DNA from: a virus
Virus record (IMG/VR): IMGVR_UViG_3300049793_000074
Location: 1 to 41,098 of that record
Direction: 5' to 3' (one strand)
Length of the DNA: 41,098 bases
In this document: positions 3,825-41,095 of the stretch, in pieces
Numbering within the stretch: position 1 is the first letter of the stretch
Layout of the letters: every line of letters starts with the position of its first letter
The notes under the pieces: generated by a model
The model's database searches: none
The model's input: the letters and a program-made list of their open reading frames with translations, nothing else
What the model was told of the DNA's origin: nothing
Made by a program: the position numbers and the translations under genes

Positions 3825-3843
3825 CCTGTAGGAGAGTAACGAA

Positions 3844-24165: not shown

Positions 24166-24756
24166 TTACTCGCCCAACACCTTCTTGAACTCGACCAGCA
24201 CGAGCGCGCTGTTGGCTTCGTCCGTCGCCATCCCGGCGAGCGTCAGGCCCCAGCCGGCGAACGCGGCATTGACCCACGCATCATCGGCCGCCTTGCCCGG
24301 GCCGGTCTTGGCGGCCAGGTAGGCGACAAGCTTCTGGTATTCGGTCAGCGCGGGCGGCGTGATGGCGCCGGGGATCGCGAGGCCGCCGATTGCAGGCAGT
24401 TGGACGCCGGTCAGGGCGGGCGGGTTGCCCACGGTGGCGGTGCCGGCACGGGCGCGGAGTTCGGCGCTGACGGAAGCGAACAGCGCGTCCGGCGTGTTCT
24501 TCTTGCGCGTCCAGGAACCGTCGGCCTTCACGGACTTCGAACCCGAGTGGATGCGTTCGTCCCACGGGAGTCCGGTTGAATCGACAGCGGGCGGCGTGGA
24601 GTTGACGATTTCCGTCACGCCTGCGGGGCCTTCGATGACGCCATCGGCGTCGGCGTCGAGCGCGGCCGGAACGTTGTCGGCGCTGTCCTTGATCGAAGCG
24701 GCAGCGGCCATCATGGCGGCAGCGATGGTGTAGAGGATGTACTTGAGTTTGCCCAT
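24166..24756 (-). CDS. Membrane-anchored or secreted protein with phage 'PWDERIHS' domain
   Basis: A 196-residue protein; ATG 24756 was chosen because it gives a clear signal-like N-terminus (GKLKYILYTIAAAMMAAAAS) and lies just inside the divergent control region. After an acidic linker comes PWDERIHSGSKSVKADGSW, a motif common in phage replication-region proteins, where it precedes a helix (DALFASVSAELRAR). The C-terminal third is Ala/Pro-rich with helices (TEYQKLVAYLAAKTG; ANSALVLVEFKKVLG). The role is unknown. The N-terminal membrane anchor is unusual for this motif. First gene of the leftward operon. Confidence 0.65.
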   Translation of the reverse strand: MGKLKYILYTIAAAMMAAAASIKDSADNVPAALDADADGVIEGPAGVTEIVNSTPPAVDSTGLPWDERIHSGSKSVKADGSWTRKKNTPDALFASVSAELRARAGTATVGNPPALTGVQLPAIGGLAIPGAITPPALTEYQKLVAYLAAKTGPGKAADDAWVNAAFAGWGLTLAGMATDEANSALVLVEFKKVLGE

Positions 24757-24777
24757 GGTGTGCTCTGATAAAGTTGG

Positions 24778-24807
24778 TTGCAGTCCGAAAGCGGACAAGC
24801 GCATAAT
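24778..24807 (+). promoter_or_regulatory. Possible sigma70-type promoter for the helicase operon
   Basis: TTGCAG (24778-24783) and CATAAT (24802-24807) are 18 bases apart and match the -35 and -10 boxes at 5/6 and 5/6. The spacer contains a small dyad GTCCG-AAAG-CGGAC (24783-24796). Downstream, 24817-24845 has two copies of CGTTACC(G), a sequence shared with other control sites in the window. Confidence 0.45.
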
Positions 24808-24826
24808 AGCATCATTACCGTTACCG

Positions 24827-26590
24827 ATGTCAACCATGATCGTTACCGCTCCGTCACACCCGCTCATCCTGCGCGGCTACCAAAATGAAACCGTCGTTCA
24901 CGTCGACACTGCTTGGCTCGATCCGATTATCCGCAACATCATCGTGACGTTGCCGACCGGCGCCGGCAAGACGAAACTGATGGCGTACTTCGCCAAGCGT
25001 CACCATGACCGTGGCGGGTACGGCGTGGCTATCGCGCATCGTTCGGTACTGGTGGCCCAACTCTCGATGGCACTCGCGGAGGCCGGTGTACCGCACGACA
25101 TCATCGCTTCTAAGGACGTGGTAAAGACTATCGTTGGTGAGCACATGGAAGACCTCGGCCGGTCGTTCTATGTGCCTGGCGCCAGGTTCAAAGTTGTCAG
25201 CGTCGACACCATGAAGGGTCGGGCTCCAGCATTGTCGAGTTGGATCAAGTTGGTCACGCTCGGGTTCACGGACGAGGCGCACCACGTCCTAGAAGAAAAC
25301 AAATGGGGACGCGAGTGTAATCGTTTCGATAATCCGATGATGCGCTGGCTGTTGCCCACGGCGACACCCGAACGCGCAGACGGAAAGGGACTGGGGCGTG
25401 CAGCGCACGGAATCGCTGACGTTATCGTGAAGGGGCCAACGATGCCCTGGTTGATCGATCACGGCTACCTCACGCGGTTCGTGGTGCGTGGAGTAATCCC
25501 GAGCGACCTCGATTTGTCCAAGGTCGATATCGGGCCGAATGGGGAATACAACCTCCAGCAACTGCGCAAGGCCATCCACGGTTCCAAGAAGATCATCGGC
25601 AGCGTTGTCGATACGTACAAGCGCCTGACGCCGAACAAGCTGGGCATCGTTTTCGCGGTCGACATCAGCCACGCACAATCCATTACCGATGAGTTCAATG
25701 CCAAGGGCGTGCCATGCGAACTCATCACGGGTGAGGAAGACGAGGACAGCCGGCGCAAGAAGCTGAAGCGTTACCGCAAGCGTGAGACGCTGGTGCTGGT
25801 CAACGTCGACCTGTTCGGCGAAGGTTTCGATTTGCCGTCCATCGAAGTCGTGATGATGGCACGGCCTACCGCCAGTTACGCTTTGTTCGCACAGCAGTTC
25901 GGGCGCGGTCTGCGGATCGGCGTGGACAAGGCATATCTTGAGCACTGGGAACGGTACACGGTTGAAGAACGCCTGGCGATCATTACCACGTCGTCCAAGC
26001 CTGTGGCTTTAATTCACGATCACGTCGGTAACGTGTTGCACTTCGGTGGCCCGCCGACCGTGCCGCGAGAATTCACTCTCGACAGCACACGTCGCAGTGG
26101 TGGCCCGAGCGATGCGATCCCGCTGCGGATTTGCCTGTCGCCGACGTGTTTGCAACCGTTCGAGCGCTTCTACACGCATTGTCCGTACTGCGGCTTCAAC
26201 GTGCCGCCGCCGCCATTGCCCACGCTGCCCGAACAGGTTGACGGCGACCTGGTGCTGTACACGCCCGAAATGCTGTGGAAGCTGTTCAAAGTGACAACGG
26301 TACAGGCTGCGCTGGCGATCCAGCCCGACGCTTATGTCAAGATTCCGCCGACTATGACATCACTTGCAGAGGTGCGCGCACGGCAGGCGAACCACAACAA
26401 GATGATCCTGGCCCAGCGCGAGCTGTCGGCGCTGATGCCGCTGACGATGCCGCCTCGATATAGCGAGCGTGAAAACCAACGCCGATTCTTTCATCACTAC
26501 GGGATGGACGTGGTGCAGACGAGACTGTTGACTGCCAGCGCCACGGAAGAATTGATCAGCAGGATCAAAAACAGCTTGACGGTGCGATGA
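24827..26590 (+). CDS. SF2 DEAH-type helicase, RadD-like, with C-terminal zinc finger
   Basis: About 587 residues from ATG 24827 (or ATG 24836 three codons later); there is no strong ribosome site. Helicase motifs: Q-like LRGYQ near 15, I LPTGAGKT (about 43), II DEAH (about 149), III TATPER, then V GFDLPSIEVVMMARPT and VI QQFGRGLR (about 355). A CxxxxC...CPYC cluster near 435-456 (CLSPTCLQPF ... HCPYCGF) makes a zinc finger. This layout resembles RadD/YejH, which supports recombination repair with SSB. First gene of the rightward operon. Confidence 0.85.
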   Translation: MSTMIVTAPSHPLILRGYQNETVVHVDTAWLDPIIRNIIVTLPTGAGKTKLMAYFAKRHHDRGGYGVAIAHRSVLVAQLSMALAEAGVPHDIIASKDVVKTIVGEHMEDLGRSFYVPGARFKVVSVDTMKGRAPALSSWIKLVTLGFTDEAHHVLEENKWGRECNRFDNPMMRWLLPTATPERADGKGLGRAAHGIADVIVKGPTMPWLIDHGYLTRFVVRGVIPSDLDLSKVDIGPNGEYNLQQLRKAIHGSKKIIGSVVDTYKRLTPNKLGIVFAVDISHAQSITDEFNAKGVPCELITGEEDEDSRRKKLKRYRKRETLVLVNVDLFGEGFDLPSIEVVMMARPTASYALFAQQFGRGLRIGVDKAYLEHWERYTVEERLAIITTSSKPVALIHDHVGNVLHFGGPPTVPREFTLDSTRRSGGPSDAIPLRICLSPTCLQPFERFYTHCPYCGFNVPPPPLPTLPEQVDGDLVLYTPEMLWKLFKVTTVQAALAIQPDAYVKIPPTMTSLAEVRARQANHNKMILAQRELSALMPLTMPPRYSERENQRRFFHHYGMDVVQTRLLTASATEELISRIKNSLTVR

Positions 26591-28752: not shown

Positions 28753-29080
28753 ACCCGGCAAGTACGACGAAGTGCTCATCCCGTTCCTCCGTCTGATGGA
28801 ACGTGAGCTGCACTCGAACAGCCACAAGGGCGACCGGCCGTCGTGGGTCAACCTGTCGCGCGACGGCGCCATGTTCGAGGTGTACGACCACGCGGCGAAG
28901 CTGGCAGCGGCGTTGCGTGTGGATGACCACACCCGCATCATCGAGCATGCTGCCGACGTGGCGAACTCCGCAATGATGCTGCTCGACGCGTGGGGCCTGC
29001 TGGCGCCTGGCTTTCACAAGCGCTGGAATATCCGACCCGGCTGTACCTGTCCGGCCTGCATGGGGGAGTTGCTCAAATGA
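28736..29080 (+). CDS. Helical protein resembling dNTP pyrophosphohydrolase-type phage proteins
   Basis: A 114-residue protein; ATG 28736 overlaps the end of the Toprim gene by 17 bases. The pattern FLRLMERELHSNSHKGDRPS and YDHAAKLAAALRVDDH then HAADVANSAMMLLD recalls the N-terminal domain found in phage dATP/dGTP diphosphohydrolases. The C-terminus has CTCPACMG, which may bind zinc. An alternative is a structural helical protein. The frame is supported by overlap with both neighbours. Confidence 0.55.
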   Translation: MTSATEPGKYDEVLIPFLRLMERELHSNSHKGDRPSWVNLSRDGAMFEVYDHAAKLAAALRVDDHTRIIEHAADVANSAMMLLDAWGLLAPGFHKRWNIRPGCTCPACMGELLK

Positions 29081-29610
29081 GCCTCGCACAAGCACTCATT
29101 GCCTGGGCACGTATCGAAGGAGTGAGTCACGACTCGCTTAATCGTCTCACAGACATCTTGGCCGGCTTCGATGCTGCACCAGCCCCTGGCGACCCGGACA
29201 AGCTGTCGTCCGAAGCCCGCGTGCAGTCCCTGGTGCGGCTCGAAGCGGCCCAGTCCGGTTACTGGCTCACGCGGAACAACGTCGGTGCCTACAAGGCCCC
29301 GAACTCCAGTCGCTGGGTGCGCTACGGCCTGGCGAACGAATCGAAACAACAAAATGCCCTGGTCAAGAGTGCCGATTTGATCGGATTCCGACAACGCGTT
29401 ATAGTTAGTACCGATGTCGGTTCAACCATCGCGCAGTTTGTGTCACGCGAGTGCAAGGCAGAAGGCTGGAGTTTCAGCCCTAACGATGAGCACGAACAAG
29501 CACAAGCCGCGTGGCGAGACTTCATCAATTCGAACGGGGGCGATGCCGCTTTCGTTAGCGGCCCCGGATCGTTCGCTCGACCCGCACTGAAAACCCTGTC
29601 ACTTCCCTAG
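29077..29610 (+). CDS. VRR-NUC-type nuclease
   Basis: A 177-residue protein starting at an ATGA overlap with GGGGGAG upstream; the longer open frame was not used. The VRR-NUC pattern is visible: E46 in SSEARVQ, D100 in KSADLIGF, E125-C-K127 in FVSRECKAEGW, and a Gln-rich helix EHEQAQAAWRDFI followed by GGDAAFV. VRR-NUC nucleases cleave branched or flap DNA, as in FAN1 and phage Holliday-junction-processing enzymes. Its neighbours (helicase, Toprim protein, SSB and Cas4-like nuclease) fit a recombination role. Confidence 0.78.
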   Translation: MSLAQALIAWARIEGVSHDSLNRLTDILAGFDAAPAPGDPDKLSSEARVQSLVRLEAAQSGYWLTRNNVGAYKAPNSSRWVRYGLANESKQQNALVKSADLIGFRQRVIVSTDVGSTIAQFVSRECKAEGWSFSPNDEHEQAQAAWRDFINSNGGDAAFVSGPGSFARPALKTLSLP

Positions 29611-29620
29611 GAGTACCGAA

Positions 29621-30277
29621 ATGTCCAAGAAACCCGTTCTCATGCCCAAGGCAGAACGTCGAGAGGCCGCGCTGGTCGTCGCCCTCAAGCTCGCCAAGAA
29701 GGTGGGCGCCCGCCGCGTCTCCATGGCGATGGTCGCCGCCGCGCAGAAAGTGACGGCACCGCTGCTGTTCCACATCTTCGAGAGCCGCGAAGGTCTGACC
29801 AAGGCCATCCTGAAGGCCGCGAAGGCGCAGGGCGTCGTGCTTCCCGAGGCTGCGCCGACCGTGCGAGAGGCCAGGGCGGCGACCAAGAAGCCGCTGAAGG
29901 CACTGAAGCCGCTGGCGGTTCCGGCGAAGGGCGCCAAGCCTGCCAAGCTCGGAAAGCTGATCAAGCCGAAAGCGCCCGTCAAGAAGGTCGCCGCGCTCCT
30001 GCGTCCGAAGCTGCCGATCAACGTCGTCAAGGCGATCAAGAACAAGGAGGCCGCGAAGGGCGTGGACGGGATCAAGCTGAACGCCAAGTTCTCCCTGCCG
30101 AAGCCGGCCACCAAGAAGGCCGCAACGGTCAAGCTCGCAGCCCCGGCTGGCCAACGTGCCGCCAAGAAGGCCCGCGATGCCGCCCGTCGCGCACCGGCTG
30201 TGGTGTCCACGCCGGCAAGCAAGTTCGCCAGCTTGCCGGCGCCGTTCGAAGCCGCACTGGCCCAGGTCGGGGCATGA
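29621..30277 (+). CDS. TetR-like HTH fused to lysine/alanine/proline-rich tail
   Basis: A 218-residue protein with start element GGAGTACCGAAATG. Residues about 12-68 read as a TetR-family DNA-binding domain: helix 1 AALVVALKLAKKVG, then VSMAMVAAAQKVTAPLLFHI and FESREGLTKAILKAA, with the expected helix-turn-helix spacing. From about residue 75 the protein is a basic, low-complexity Lys/Ala/Pro tail (KKPLKALKPLAVPAKG; PAKLGKLIKPKAPVKKVAAL) like histone H1 or AlgP tails. There is no TetR ligand domain. It may bind specific sites through the HTH and coat or compact DNA through the tail. It is a candidate binder of the repeated motifs in this genome. Confidence 0.7.
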   Translation: MSKKPVLMPKAERREAALVVALKLAKKVGARRVSMAMVAAAQKVTAPLLFHIFESREGLTKAILKAAKAQGVVLPEAAPTVREARAATKKPLKALKPLAVPAKGAKPAKLGKLIKPKAPVKKVAALLRPKLPINVVKAIKNKEAAKGVDGIKLNAKFSLPKPATKKAATVKLAAPAGQRAAKKARDAARRAPAVVSTPASKFASLPAPFEAALAQVGA

Positions 30278-31441: not shown

Positions 31442-31596
31442 CCTCGCCGGCTGTCATCCGGCACCGGGCGAACCCGACCCGTATGTGTCCAAATCGTAAG
31501 TGCTGCTGTGCGAACCACATCGCAGCTCGTTACTGCCACAACTGCGGCTACAAGTTTCAGCCGCTCCGCTCACTCAAACCACGCACGGGATCATGA
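31438..31596 (+). CDS. Very small zinc-ribbon protein
   Basis: A 52-residue frame starting with GTG 31438, sharing TGA with the upstream stop (an internal ATG at 31483 is another option). Its core CPNRKCCCANHIAARYCHNC is a treble-clef or zinc-ribbon-like set of cysteines and a histidine. It ends in an ATGA overlap with the next gene. Too short to be found easily, but coupled to genes on both sides. Confidence 0.55.
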   Translation: MTSPAVIRHRANPTRMCPNRKCCCANHIAARYCHNCGYKFQPLRSLKPRTGS

Positions 31597-31940
31597 GCCT
31601 CGATAACGATTACGAACGGTTCGCGTACGACCTGGTGAAATTCATCATCGACCGTGGCGGCTACCGTGCAACCGACGAACTCTGCAAGATCGTCTCGGAG
31701 AAGCTGATGCAAGGCCCGAATTTCACCCTGTGGCCGCGTGACGCGGCTGAAGCAAATCAGCGTGCACGTGATCGAGCTGCCGCCGCTGCCATTCGTCGCC
31801 CGGAGCTACCTCGGCCTCTCACTGCACCTGGTCTGCCGCGTCCGTTGTCCACGCCGACCCTGCCGCGTGGGCCGCTGGTGGCTCCGTCGCTCCCGCGTCC
31901 ACTCGCACCGCCACCACTGCCGCGTCTGCTCAAGCCATGA
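31593..31940 (+). CDS. Small protein with Pro/Leu/Arg-rich tail, unknown
   Basis: A 115-residue protein starting at an ATGA overlap. The N-terminal 65 residues form helices (NDYERFAYDLVKFIIDRGGY); the tail contains repeated LPRPL units (GLPRPLSTPTLPRGP; PSLPRPLAPPPLPRLL). The repeats are probably unstructured. No family recognised. Confidence 0.6.
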   Translation: MSLDNDYERFAYDLVKFIIDRGGYRATDELCKIVSEKLMQGPNFTLWPRDAAEANQRARDRAAAAAIRRPELPRPLTAPGLPRPLSTPTLPRGPLVAPSLPRPLAPPPLPRLLKP

Positions 31941-32285: not shown

Positions 32286-32307
32286 ACGGGCGCCATTGTG
32301 CGCCCGT
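32286..32307 (+). terminator. Hairpin in primase leader, possible attenuator
   Basis: ACGGGCGC (32286-32293), a 6-base loop CATTGT and GCGCCCGT (32300-32307) form an 8-bp stem. There is no U tract after it, so simple intrinsic termination is doubtful. A -10-like TATACT (32316-32321) follows, 6 bases before the primase ATG, so the gene may be read from a near-leaderless transcript. Confidence 0.4.
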
Positions 32308-32327
32308 TGTCGCTCTATACTAACGAT

Positions 32328-34910
32328 ATGACATACCCTGACCAGTACATGATCTATCACCTCGTGTCGTGGAACGAGGAAAAGCACAAGTGGAACAAGA
32401 AACCAGTAGGGCTCGACGGTGCGCCGCTACCGACCGAGCAGGGCATACCGACCAGTTCTGACCGCGCGGCCGTCGTCGATACCGTCAATGCGCTCAACGC
32501 CGGCCAGCAGCCGCCGCGCTACATGCTCGGCCTGTGGCTGCACCCTGATTCGCAATTCTTCTTTCTCGACCTGGACGACAACGCGGTACAGGACGGACGA
32601 CTGACACCGTTCGCTAACGCCCTCGCGTCACCGTTCGTCACTGCCGGTTGCTACTTCGAAGCGTCCACGTCAGGCCGTGGCGCGCACATCATCGGTCGTT
32701 ACCATGGCGTGCTGCAACCTTTCAGCACCAGTCGTAAGCGAGTCCACCCGCATGAGTTCTTCGTGCGTGACCGTGGCGTCGTGCTGAACCCGGACGCCCA
32801 CTCTGGCGACTGGAACGCAGACGCTACTGCGCTACTGCCGGCACTGCTCACGGAGCACTTCCCACCACGGCATGCCAACGATGAGCTGTTCGAGTTCAGC
32901 GACACCCCGCGTACCGAATGGCGCGGCCCGGTCGACGATGACGACTTGATCCGTCGCTTCCTCTCGGCCACTGGCAGTGCAGCGGCCCGGCTGCGCGGTT
33001 CTATCTCGCTGCCTGACCTGTGGAACGGCCGCTGCCCGCACAGCAGCGAGTCCGACCTGGCGCTGGCCTCGCACCTGGCGTTCTGGACGGGTTGCGCCGC
33101 TGCTCGCATCGAACGCCTGATGCGCCGCTCACCGCTGGCCGCGCACCGTCTCGACAAGTGGGACAGCCACCGTACCTACCTGCGCGAACTAACGATCCGT
33201 GAAGCCTGCGTGACGACTCGCACTGTCTACCACGAACCCGAGCGCGTGGACACGGCCGCCGCGATCCTCGGTATCGGTCGTCCACCACTGCGACCGCTCA
33301 CTGCTCCAACTGCACCGCTCGGCATCACTGTCAACGGCGCACCCACTGAACTCCTGCCGCCGCTGCCCGCCGCTGACTGGCACGCGATGGTCGACCAGGC
33401 AATCAGCGCGATCAACAACGCCGGCACGTTCAAGGAGTTGGCTGACAACGTAATGCCCGGCCTCGGCAACTACGGCTTCCCACGTCTACACGGAGAACGC
33501 ATCGTTACCGCACTGGGCAAGAAGCTTGAAATCTTCGACGCCAAAATGTCCGTAAGCCAACTCCGCGCTCTGGTCATGCCGCCAGCACTGGCCGAACAGC
33601 TCGCACAGAACACTGTCCCGGAGTGGGCGCAGTCCCTCGTGTACCTGATCAAGTCGGACAAGTTCTTCGACACCGCAACAACTGACGAGTACAGCCACGA
33701 AGCCGTGCGCATGGCGTTCAACCGTCACATGCCCATGAAGCCCACCGGCTCGCGTGAAGACGTGATCGTCTACCTGCGTGACCGCTGGCAAATCGACACC
33801 CTGGAGGACGCCGAGTACCGCCCGGATCAGCCGCCGACCTTCGAGCACGCCGGCAAGCGATTTGCCAACAGGTTCCTTGCCTCAACCATGCCCACGCCGG
33901 TTATCGGTTCGGACGAGTGCAGCCAGTGCATCCGTCTCCTGCAAGAGCACCTGTATTCGATAACCAATCGGCGTGACGCGATCTATTGGAGCCTGCTGTA
34001 CTGGCTTGCACACAACGTGCAGCGGCCTGGCGTCAAAATCCGATGGTCGCCGCTGATCAAAGGCGTTCCAGGTGACGGTAAGTCCATCATCGGAGACCTC
34101 CTGTTCGCGGCACTCGGAGCTGCGAACGTCAAGATCACATCACCGAACACGCTGTCGAATTCCGGCGGCTTCACGGACTGGGCGCTCGGTGGCTGTGTCA
34201 ACGTCATCGAAGAAATCCGCCTCGAAGGAAAAGAACGGCGCCGGCTGTATAACGGAATGAAGACGATTATCGGAGATTCCCGTATCGATCCGAACCGAAA
34301 AGGCAAAGCATCTTCGCTCACCCTGGTGAACGTGACGAATCACGCTGCCTTCACGAACTATCAGGACGCGCTGCCAACGGAGAACGGCGACCGTCGCTGG
34401 ATGATCGTTTTCACGCCGTGGCCTGACGCAGACGGTGCAGCGGCTGCCAAGGGCCTGCCTGGGGCCGATAGCCTGCCTGCATACTTCAAGCGATTGGGGG
34501 CAAGCATGCGTGCAGAGCCGGGGGCGTGGCGAGCGTGGCTCATGGGTATCGATTTGTCGCCATTCGACGCTGATGGTCGCGCCCCGTTCACGGACGAACG
34601 ACAAGCCATGACGAATTCCAGCGAAGATTTCACGGAGCAGACGGTACGTGACGTGATCCTGCAAGGTGGGTCGGGCGTGGACATCGAAGCGTTCTCGTCT
34701 GTCCTGCTGATGAACCGTGTCCAAGTTTCGTTGGGCGAAAAACCAGATACCAGAAGCTGGAACAGGATCTTGACGGATCTTGGCTACCAACAACACCCTG
34801 TCCAAATTTGGTGGTCTGGTCGTTCTCATCGTGCCTGGACGAAAAAATCACTGGAGAAGGACAAAATCTTGGAAATTTTCAACCGTTCTGCGTTCAACGT
34901 TCCGAGCTGA
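32328..34910 (+). CDS. Primase-polymerase/helicase (AEP plus D5/SF3-like)
   Basis: An 860-residue protein; ATG 32328 follows the element TAACGAT, though with no Shine-Dalgarno (a GTG at 32298 is an alternative). The N-terminus resembles archaeo-eukaryotic primases of the NrS-1 type, with the catalytic pair in FFLDLDDN (about 80-85) and TSGRGAHIIGRYHG. A helical segment LPDLWNGRCPHSSESDLALAS follows. From about residue 560 lies an SF3/D5-type helicase with Walker A GVPGDGKS (about 579-586), IEEI as Walker B, and TNHAAFTNY. It should open the origin and make primers. The downstream gap contains the repeat cluster. Confidence 0.85.
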   Translation: MTYPDQYMIYHLVSWNEEKHKWNKKPVGLDGAPLPTEQGIPTSSDRAAVVDTVNALNAGQQPPRYMLGLWLHPDSQFFFLDLDDNAVQDGRLTPFANALASPFVTAGCYFEASTSGRGAHIIGRYHGVLQPFSTSRKRVHPHEFFVRDRGVVLNPDAHSGDWNADATALLPALLTEHFPPRHANDELFEFSDTPRTEWRGPVDDDDLIRRFLSATGSAAARLRGSISLPDLWNGRCPHSSESDLALASHLAFWTGCAAARIERLMRRSPLAAHRLDKWDSHRTYLRELTIREACVTTRTVYHEPERVDTAAAILGIGRPPLRPLTAPTAPLGITVNGAPTELLPPLPAADWHAMVDQAISAINNAGTFKELADNVMPGLGNYGFPRLHGERIVTALGKKLEIFDAKMSVSQLRALVMPPALAEQLAQNTVPEWAQSLVYLIKSDKFFDTATTDEYSHEAVRMAFNRHMPMKPTGSREDVIVYLRDRWQIDTLEDAEYRPDQPPTFEHAGKRFANRFLASTMPTPVIGSDECSQCIRLLQEHLYSITNRRDAIYWSLLYWLAHNVQRPGVKIRWSPLIKGVPGDGKSIIGDLLFAALGAANVKITSPNTLSNSGGFTDWALGGCVNVIEEIRLEGKERRRLYNGMKTIIGDSRIDPNRKGKASSLTLVNVTNHAAFTNYQDALPTENGDRRWMIVFTPWPDADGAAAAKGLPGADSLPAYFKRLGASMRAEPGAWRAWLMGIDLSPFDADGRAPFTDERQAMTNSSEDFTEQTVRDVILQGGSGVDIEAFSSVLLMNRVQVSLGEKPDTRSWNRILTDLGYQQHPVQIWWSGRSHRAWTKKSLEKDKILEIFNRSAFNVPS

Positions 34911-40307: not shown

Positions 40308-40356
40308 GGTGATTCCTTGAAGTTAAACAGTACAGGGGAGATTCTGACGGACGCGG

Positions 40357-40369
40357 TAACGATCTGTCA
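40357..40369 (+). promoter_or_regulatory. TAACGATTTGTCA-type site before DUF932 gene
   Basis: TAACGATCTGTCA matches the motif at 12 of 13 positions. It overlaps the stop of the upstream split frame and lies 50 bases before the DUF932 start. Confidence 0.5.
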
Positions 40370-40600
40370 ACCGATCATGTTGCAGTCACTGACGGTGTAG
40401 CCAAAGCGTTCCGCCAGCGCAGCGGCCTGCGTCCTCGTGTTCGCTTCGCATTCCAGCGGGCCACGATGCGTGCCCATGCGGTACAGGTGCGAGGTGCCTT
40501 ACACGTTGATCCGTGCCACGTTGCCGAATCCACCCAGCGTATGGACGGGTTGCGGCTCAGCGGCGCGCGTGGGAACGGCTGCACCAGTGGGTTTCGACAT
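40367..40600 (-). pseudogene. Small gene split by an in-frame TAA
   Basis: From ATG 40600 (with AAGGAC upstream) one frame runs 33 codons to TAA (40499-40501), then continues in the same frame for 43 codons to TGA (40367-40369). The parts read as one protein: VHTLGGFGNVARINV, stop, GTSHLYRMGTHRGPLECEAN, then AAALAERFGYTVSDCNMIG. Changing the TAA to CAA (Gln) would restore a 77-residue protein. It may be a nonsense mutant, a sequencing error or stop readthrough; two short proteins are also possible, since an ATG lies 7 codons after the stop. Confidence 0.5.
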
Positions 40601-40612
40601 GATTCGTTGTCC

Positions 40613-40786
40613 TTAGAAAGTGATGATCAAAGCCGCGAGGATCGACAGGCCAGTGATGACCATGCAACCACTGACCATCGCGACTACGTTGGAGCGACGC
40701 ACAGCACGCACAGGTGCAGGACGTTGCCACGATGGCACGGCAGCACGTTGGAGTGATTCATTAGCTGTGTACTCGGAGCGGATCAT
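40613..40786 (-). CDS. Small tail-anchored membrane protein, first gene of leftward operon
   Basis: A 57-residue frame from ATG 40786 with TGAGGC upstream; a longer frame to 40831 lacks a ribosome site and would reach into the control region. Basic N-terminal 30 residues (PAPVRAVRRS) are followed by one C-terminal membrane helix (VSGCMVITGLSILAALIITF). Next to the control region it would be the first product of this operon. Role unknown. Confidence 0.6.
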   Translation of the reverse strand: MIRSEYTANESLQRAAVPSWQRPAPVRAVRRSNVVAMVSGCMVITGLSILAALIITF

Positions 40787-40846
40787 GTTGCGTGCCTCAA
40801 TGCGGGTTGGTGATGCAATGACTATATGCATGTGCCGTGCCAACTC

Positions 40847-41095
40847 TGACAAATCGTTAGTAACGATCCGTTCTCATAGGTGAATGAGGGCTCTACTAGA
40901 TGTGTGAGTGTCACCACGTGCAGGGTAACGATGTGACAATTCCTGTCAGTGTGACGATTTGCGTCACTAAATCTCTGACAATTCTTGTCACTCGCAAGCG
41001 GCATGCCAGCTATAACGATTTGTCAAATGTTGGCACCGATGCAGCGCATGCCCCGGCCGGTAACGATAAGAGTTCGGACGGATGACAAATCGTTA
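40847..41095. promoter_or_regulatory. Non-coding control region with motif and dyad array
   Basis: About 310 bases at the right edge (40787-41098) have no convincing gene. TAACGATTTGTCA occurs exactly at 41013-41025, and as its reverse complement at 40847-40859 and 41083-41095; a looser copy lies at 40926-40938. Bases 40853-40867 form a perfect palindrome ATCGTTA-G-TAACGAT. Three 15-bp dyads follow: TGACAATTCCTGTCA (40934), TGACGATTTGCGTCA (40952) and TGACAATTCTTGTCA (40976), all TGACR-N5-YGTCA. On the minus strand TTGACA (plus 41021-41026, read TGTCAA) is a perfect -35 box, but no matching -10 was found. The region likely holds operators for the leftward operon. Confidence 0.65.
40934..40990. 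repeat. Three 15-bp dyads TGACR-N5-YGTCA
   Basis: Dyads start at 40934, 40952 and 40976, spaced 18 and 24 bases apart, close to two helical turns each. The first and third differ by one base. This is the layout expected for a dimeric repressor or activator with cooperative binding. Confidence 0.7.

Follow-up and report, generated by a model that had tools for sequence, protein, structure and literature searches.

The window, a virus record of 41,098 bases analysed at its full length, represents part of a phage genome, in which tail genes occupy the left and a replication block the right. Within this block lies an open reading frame whose ATG stands 11 nt past the end of the preceding gene, and which is a genuine gene. 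The features on which the analysis draws are the following.

24737–26590, plus strand: DNA helicase gene, upstream limit of the replication gene block (start approximate)
29077–29610, plus strand: phrog_93-like nuclease gene, directly upstream of the HTH-tail gene (start picked from homologues)
29609–29613, plus strand: AGGAG ribosome-binding site, read from the sequence, 7 nt before the ATG of the 29621–30277 gene
29621–30277, plus strand: gene for a protein of 218 aa (ATG start) with a TetR_N helix-turn-helix (HTH) and a Lys/Ala/Pro (KAP) tail, classed as a tailed variant of PHROG 8723 from its profile match and gene order
29648–29830, plus strand: HTH domain, residues 10–70 (AlphaFold2, Foldseek; Pfam TetR_N match at 29672–29809)
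29756–29779, plus strand: predicted recognition helix, residues 46–53 (APLLFHIF; AlphaFold2 helix 3 and TetR homology)
29837–30274, plus strand: disordered Lys/Ala/Pro tail, residues 73–218 (146 aa; AlphaFold2 and composition)
32298–34910, plus strand: DNA primase gene, downstream limit of the same block
40355–41095, no strand: TAACGAT half-sites and TGACAA/TTGTCA repeats clustered at the right end, candidate binding region
40853–40867, no strand: perfect 15-bp palindrome ATCGTTAGTAACGAT, candidate operator and sole perfect palindrome of the window half-site

No sigma-70-like promoter scored above shuffled sequences in the 24.5–32.4 kb block. The block also contains, at 31500–31940, an open reading frame of 146 aa with a repetitive Pro-Leu-rich end (LPRPL repeats) and no PHROG match.

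The N-terminal head of the protein carries a TetR-type HTH, as the original prediction had proposed from the sequence. A profile search for such a domain, set beforehand as a check, returned Pfam TetR_N (PF00440) over residues 18–63 (E = 1.2e-6, 28.6 bits against a cut-off of 24), and the AlphaFold2 model, built on a 41-sequence alignment, places four helices at residues 10–28, 35–42, 46–53 and 56–70 with a pLDDT of about 97 over residues 10–70. The best PDB matches returned by Foldseek for the head are the HTHs of the TetR-family proteins LuxR, HapR and SmcR (65–67 residues, 1.2–1.4 Å), with an E-value of only about 2e-3 because most of the model is tail. The head is also matched by the profile of PHROG 8723 (E = 1.2e-6, residues 7–70), a partial match confined to the HTH (positions 20–83 of 251).

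The tail (residues 73–218) is made up of 25% alanine, 18% lysine, 12% proline and 5% arginine with only 4% acidic residues, giving a net charge of +27, and the whole protein reaches +38, compared with −55 to +11 for the 13 other window proteins examined, in all of which lysine content is at most 6%. AlphaFold2 finds no confident fold from about residue 90 onward (pLDDT mostly 50–67), Pfam identified no C-terminal domain beyond the HTH, and neither TRF (score 30) nor the protein sequence revealed a tandem repeat or visible KPAA repeats. The original prediction was right about the histone-H1-like composition of the tail and about the unusual layout. A known counterpart is AlgP of Pseudomonas, a histone-H1-like DNA-binding protein with a long, strongly positive and disordered Lys/Ala/Pro C-terminus (PMC9239181). 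The window protein shares this disordered, basic, Lys/Ala/Pro-rich C-terminus, but AlgP has tandem KPAA repeats, and its helical N-terminal domain of 124 aa is a different one. Other phage proteins can have KAP-rich stretches too, as in a ‘hypothetical’ protein of Xanthomonas phage AhaSv (MSENAEATEGKVAKKRTAVKK..., L016:1974-2687), whose genome has no TetR_N match.

Direct searches with the window protein (tblastn on phages and on plasmids) and peptide-pattern scans of viral and genome contigs yielded no relatives, because the tail is of low complexity and the HTH divergent. Neither the topoisomerase-like neighbour nor the next Zn-ribbon gene led to tailed relatives, and eight phages sharing only the topoisomerase-like gene (W01–W08) had no PHROG 8723 match. 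The route that did reach them ran through the window DNA polymerase, which is 55% identical to that of IMGVR_UViG_3300005437_000006 and 44% to that of Stenotrophomonas phage Silvanus, and then through the nuclease neighbour. In both of these genomes the gene right after a phrog_93-like nuclease gene encodes an N-terminal HTH followed by a KAP tail. IMG/VR was scanned with an alignment of eight such nucleases, and of 439 confirmed loci 80 were taken. A TetR_N-type HTH gene lies downstream of the nuclease in 76 of these 80; in the other four (L050, L063, L064, L107) the sequence ends 0.2–2 kb past the nuclease. Over 83 loci (the IMG/VR set, the window and six isolate phages) the median distance from nuclease stop to HTH domain is 239 nt; the nine tailed phages all have 24–50 nt, so that their two genes are adjacent. 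Since layout and nuclease adjacency recur together in eight other phages, the joining of HTH and tail in the window is not a chance product.

Judged by profile and gene order, the window protein belongs to PHROG 8723, as a divergent member and a layout variant. PHROG 8723 is widespread in phages but labelled ‘unknown function’, and single members are annotated ‘TetR family transcriptional regulator’. A literature search found no paper on the family, although one may exist. The profile is matched at 1e-34 to 1e-52 by the short and tandem relatives from isolates, and all 25 further records tested contain a match. Members occur in Klebsiella Jedunavirus, Shewanella, Acinetobacter, Pseudomonas and Stenotrophomonas phages and in many uncultured ones, and the order nuclease, HTH gene, primase within a replication block is found in the window and its mapped relatives.

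Three layouts can be told apart. The commonest, of about 100 aa, joins the HTH to a conserved 33-aa helical C-terminus (49 distinct proteins, median length 103, median net charge +7); a model of the short form has seven helices and a pLDDT of 94.9 (AlphaFold2), and its C-terminal segment (AQGLA...A..A.EL...AL..L) is absent from the window protein and other tailed members. In the second, two HTHs stand in tandem in one chain, the first of them degenerate (L031:4564-5064, L032:3864-4364, L042, L047, L054, L055, L070, L072, L073, L082), a built-in dimer-like arrangement in these phages. Named small members are those of Klebsiella phage IME346 (QBZ68961.1), Shewanella phage SppYZU01 (gp43) and Acinetobacter phage Scuro (gp24), which, like the window protein, have a TetR_N HTH without a ligand domain and are encoded between a phrog_93-like nuclease and a primase. 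All three end in the 33-aa helical C-terminus, and those of SppYZU01 and Scuro have a second HTH besides, where the window protein has its 146-aa KAP tail.

The third layout, HTH plus KAP tail, is present in at least nine phages (the window, L035, L036/L028, L037, L039, L053, L071, L105 and Silvanus). The original prediction knew of no phage family with this layout, a view that these phages, including the sequenced isolate Silvanus, overturn; the tailed layout is a variant within a kind already catalogued though unnamed. Silvanus gp44 (QYW02518.1, a ‘hypothetical protein’) resembles the window protein in its HTH, its KAP tail and its place right after the nuclease gene, but it has 165 aa, an HTH that alone falls below the Pfam TetR_N cut-off and a tail ending in PPLPAIPNA, and the two tails are alike by composition more than by sequence. 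The same can be said of the nine phages together, whose tails have diverged in sequence and remain similar in composition, with net charges of +13 to +27. The window protein and L035 have in common the tail motif KKVAALL(R/K)PK and a C-terminal KFxxLPxPFEA, four other tailed members share a post-HTH motif of the EPxxxKxxAIGxKLRxH type, and several members have a Pro-rich end. The drift of length and sequence alongside preserved composition and ends suggests that a charged, flexible tail is under selection. On a tree of the nuclease, which is independent of the tail trait, the tailed label is clustered (3 changes against a shuffled mean of 8.7) and the window and L035 form a starred pair; the layout may have had a single origin.

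It had also been proposed that the tail replaced a ligand and dimerisation domain. This does not hold for the family, since no PHROG 8723 member seen carries such a domain and none can therefore have been replaced in the window protein; the tail sits where short members have their 33-aa helical segment. Classical TetR proteins share the N-terminal TetR_N HTH with the window protein, but they continue into a helical ligand-binding and dimerisation domain, in place of which the window protein has its basic disordered tail. They bind palindromic operators as homodimers; the window contains a single perfect 15-bp palindrome. The protein may thus work like the classical family without being a full member of it. 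Another TetR-type protein, SlmA, described in two reports as binding specific chromosomal sites (PMC4117426, PMC3573117), likewise has a TetR-type DNA-reading head; set beside it, the window protein is without the ligand/dimerisation domain.

On an alternative, mainly architectural reading, the tail would coat or bridge replicating phage DNA in the manner of a nucleoid protein, as AlgP or H1-type tails do, and the HTH would only target or nucleate this coating. A protein with such a high net charge and a disordered tail longer than its HTH, recurring in nine phages, would suit this role, as would the position of its gene in the replication block, the genome-wide distribution of the sites considered below, and the description of the AlgP KPAA tail as DNA-binding and H1-like (PMC9239181). 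Most family members are tail-less, however, and could not act in this way, so that a single branch would have had to acquire the function, and we consider this reading rather unlikely.

The repeated GTAACG sites pointed out in the original prediction are truly over-represented, the window containing 66 against 13.7 ± 3.8 expected. Within genes, GGTAACG occurs 43 times where shuffling of synonymous codons predicts 9.2 ± 2.9, and GGTAACA/C/T do not exceed expectation; the excess therefore goes beyond protein sequence and codon usage and GGTAACG is a genuine genome-wide motif of the window. Part of the GTAACG excess is explained by the start context GGAGTAACGAAATG, which precedes several window genes (GTAACG at 3836, 5291, 19476, 26625, 39262); those sites need not be operators. 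A candidate parallel is offered by the L5 and TipsytheTRex repressors, phage HTH regulators with many short sites on their own genomes (PMC9283540). The stoperators of cluster A mycobacteriophages are oriented with transcription (PMC9283540), whereas the in-gene GTAACG sites, though many, are unoriented (22 with, 25 against transcription), and the window protein has no detected sequence relation to the stoperator repressors and no second folded DNA-binding domain.

In the nearest relative, G014, whose HTH is similar to that of the window protein, the over-represented word is the one-base variant GGTTACG (33 against 7.8), and GGTAACG itself is at background (7 against 8.5). On circumstantial grounds it is plausible that the window protein binds a GGTAACG-type motif, with ATCGTTAGTAACGAT, GGTAACGAT and GGTAACGRT as candidate target DNAs. 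Over-representation as such was rejected as proof of binding: strongly over-represented words also occur in six control phages lacking a PHROG 8723 gene, and one such word is a palindrome that lies partly between genes. Several of these phages, and the controls JG012 and VCLv21, have an excess of words of the YGTGGNCA type; in the window this form appears as CGTGGGCA (22 sites, 6689–33889), and in G014 as CGTGGACA (L115-L117), which switches strand near 25.5 kb, a behaviour that would suit a signal for priming or replication.

The over-represented words of phages without the gene, and an HTH fold closest to the bacterial master regulators LuxR, HapR and SmcR, would fit a protein directed at the host, silencing or redirecting host genes while the phage motif is bound by another factor or is unrelated. 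The one-base difference between the motifs of two phages with similar HTHs argues against this, as does a repeated palindrome that accompanies PHROG 8723 in viral contigs, described next, and a host-directed role seems to us improbable. Little more credence is given to a genome-marking function, by which the ligand-free TetR head would read a short motif repeated along its own genome, the H1-like tail would coat or organise self DNA during replication, and motif and recognition helix would coevolve between phages.

The palindrome comes from short-form relatives. CGTTAnTAACG, which the 11-bp core CGTTAGTAACG of the window palindrome matches, is repeated in the short-form genomes G022 and G027 (5 and 8 copies, where 0.05 and 0.07 are expected), and in at least three cases it takes up the whole 17-nt spacer that separates a TTGCA(T/A) from a TAT(A/G)(C/A)T hexamer, a promoter-like position where a repressor would sit. 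In a reverse test, IMG/VR was scanned for the 15-bp palindrome ACCGTTAGTAACGGT, and twelve contigs were examined first, namely ten with at least two exact matches and the source genomes G022 and G027, each of which has a single exact match besides several variants. PHROG 8723 is encoded in all eight contigs of at least 37 kb that carry the palindrome repeatedly (six exactly, G022 and G027 as close variants), four of which (G041–G044) had been missed by the nuclease scan; it is absent from four fragments of 8–15 kb with repeated ACCGTTAGTAACGGT. None of 29 other contigs above 20 kb with a single match encodes it, so that it is the repeated palindrome that accompanies the gene. For the sister palindrome ATCGTTAGTAACGAT, one contig of 45, G027, contains PHROG 8723.

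All of these palindrome phages belong to one short-form clade (HTH proteins mostly about 64–78% identical, recognition helix VSDGL(L/I)NRYFG), and co-inheritance can therefore also explain the link. None of the tailed genomes shows a strongly repeated palindrome. Palindromes with odd or one-base spacers are not enriched across the family, and the idea that a one-base spacer characterises the family in general was discarded, the spacer spectrum not differing from that of the controls. Other short-form genomes have strongly repeated palindromes of their own, candidate operators or other signals: in G028 (L147-L149), GACCGnnnCGGTC occurs 13 times against 0.1 expected, and in G025 (L141-L143), TTCGCnnnGCGAA occurs 9 times against 0.2 and TAAATnATTTA 5 times against 0.03, the five copies of TAAATnATTTA all being intergenic.

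The right end of the window, where TGACAATTCYTGTCA repeats and TAACGAT half-sites lie at 40355–41095 in mostly non-coding DNA, resembles a region for control or replication. The tailed relative G013 has short tandem repeats of GGTTACAG, in either orientation, upstream of one of its genes (L029, 23.4–23.6 kb), possibly as an iteron-like or operator array. Together with the conserved place of the gene between helicase/nuclease and primase in mapped relatives, the right-end clusters and the G013 repeats would agree with a replication accessory that binds origin sites and loads or positions helicase or primase. The promoter-like spacers occupied by the short-form palindrome are a better fit to transcription control, and recognition of an origin appears quite unlikely.

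The reading that we prefer, although the chance that its whole chain is correct is about even, is that of an early phage DNA-binding regulator. The tailed protein would be a regulator free of any ligand domain, encoded between nuclease and primase, whose HTH would read a short phage-encoded site, a TAACGRT-type half-site or each phage's own variant of it. Its basic tail would add non-specific affinity for DNA, so that sites could be occupied without the C-terminal segment of the short relatives; going by the anatomy of the two forms, electrostatic binding by the tail may stand in for some of the affinity which the short forms may owe to dimerisation. The single half-sites of the window, as against the palindromes of the short-form clade, would agree with this. 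The outcome would be repression or modulation of early phage transcription around replication, perhaps with some local DNA compaction.

PHROG 8723 is hereby given a fold, a fixed gene neighbourhood and three layouts, and in one clade a candidate operator. It retains a TetR-like head in phages without any small-molecule domain. Its tailed variant constitutes a natural experiment, in which a basic disordered tail takes the place of a folded C-terminal segment, and as such bears on the working of KAP tails in DNA-binding proteins of bacteria.
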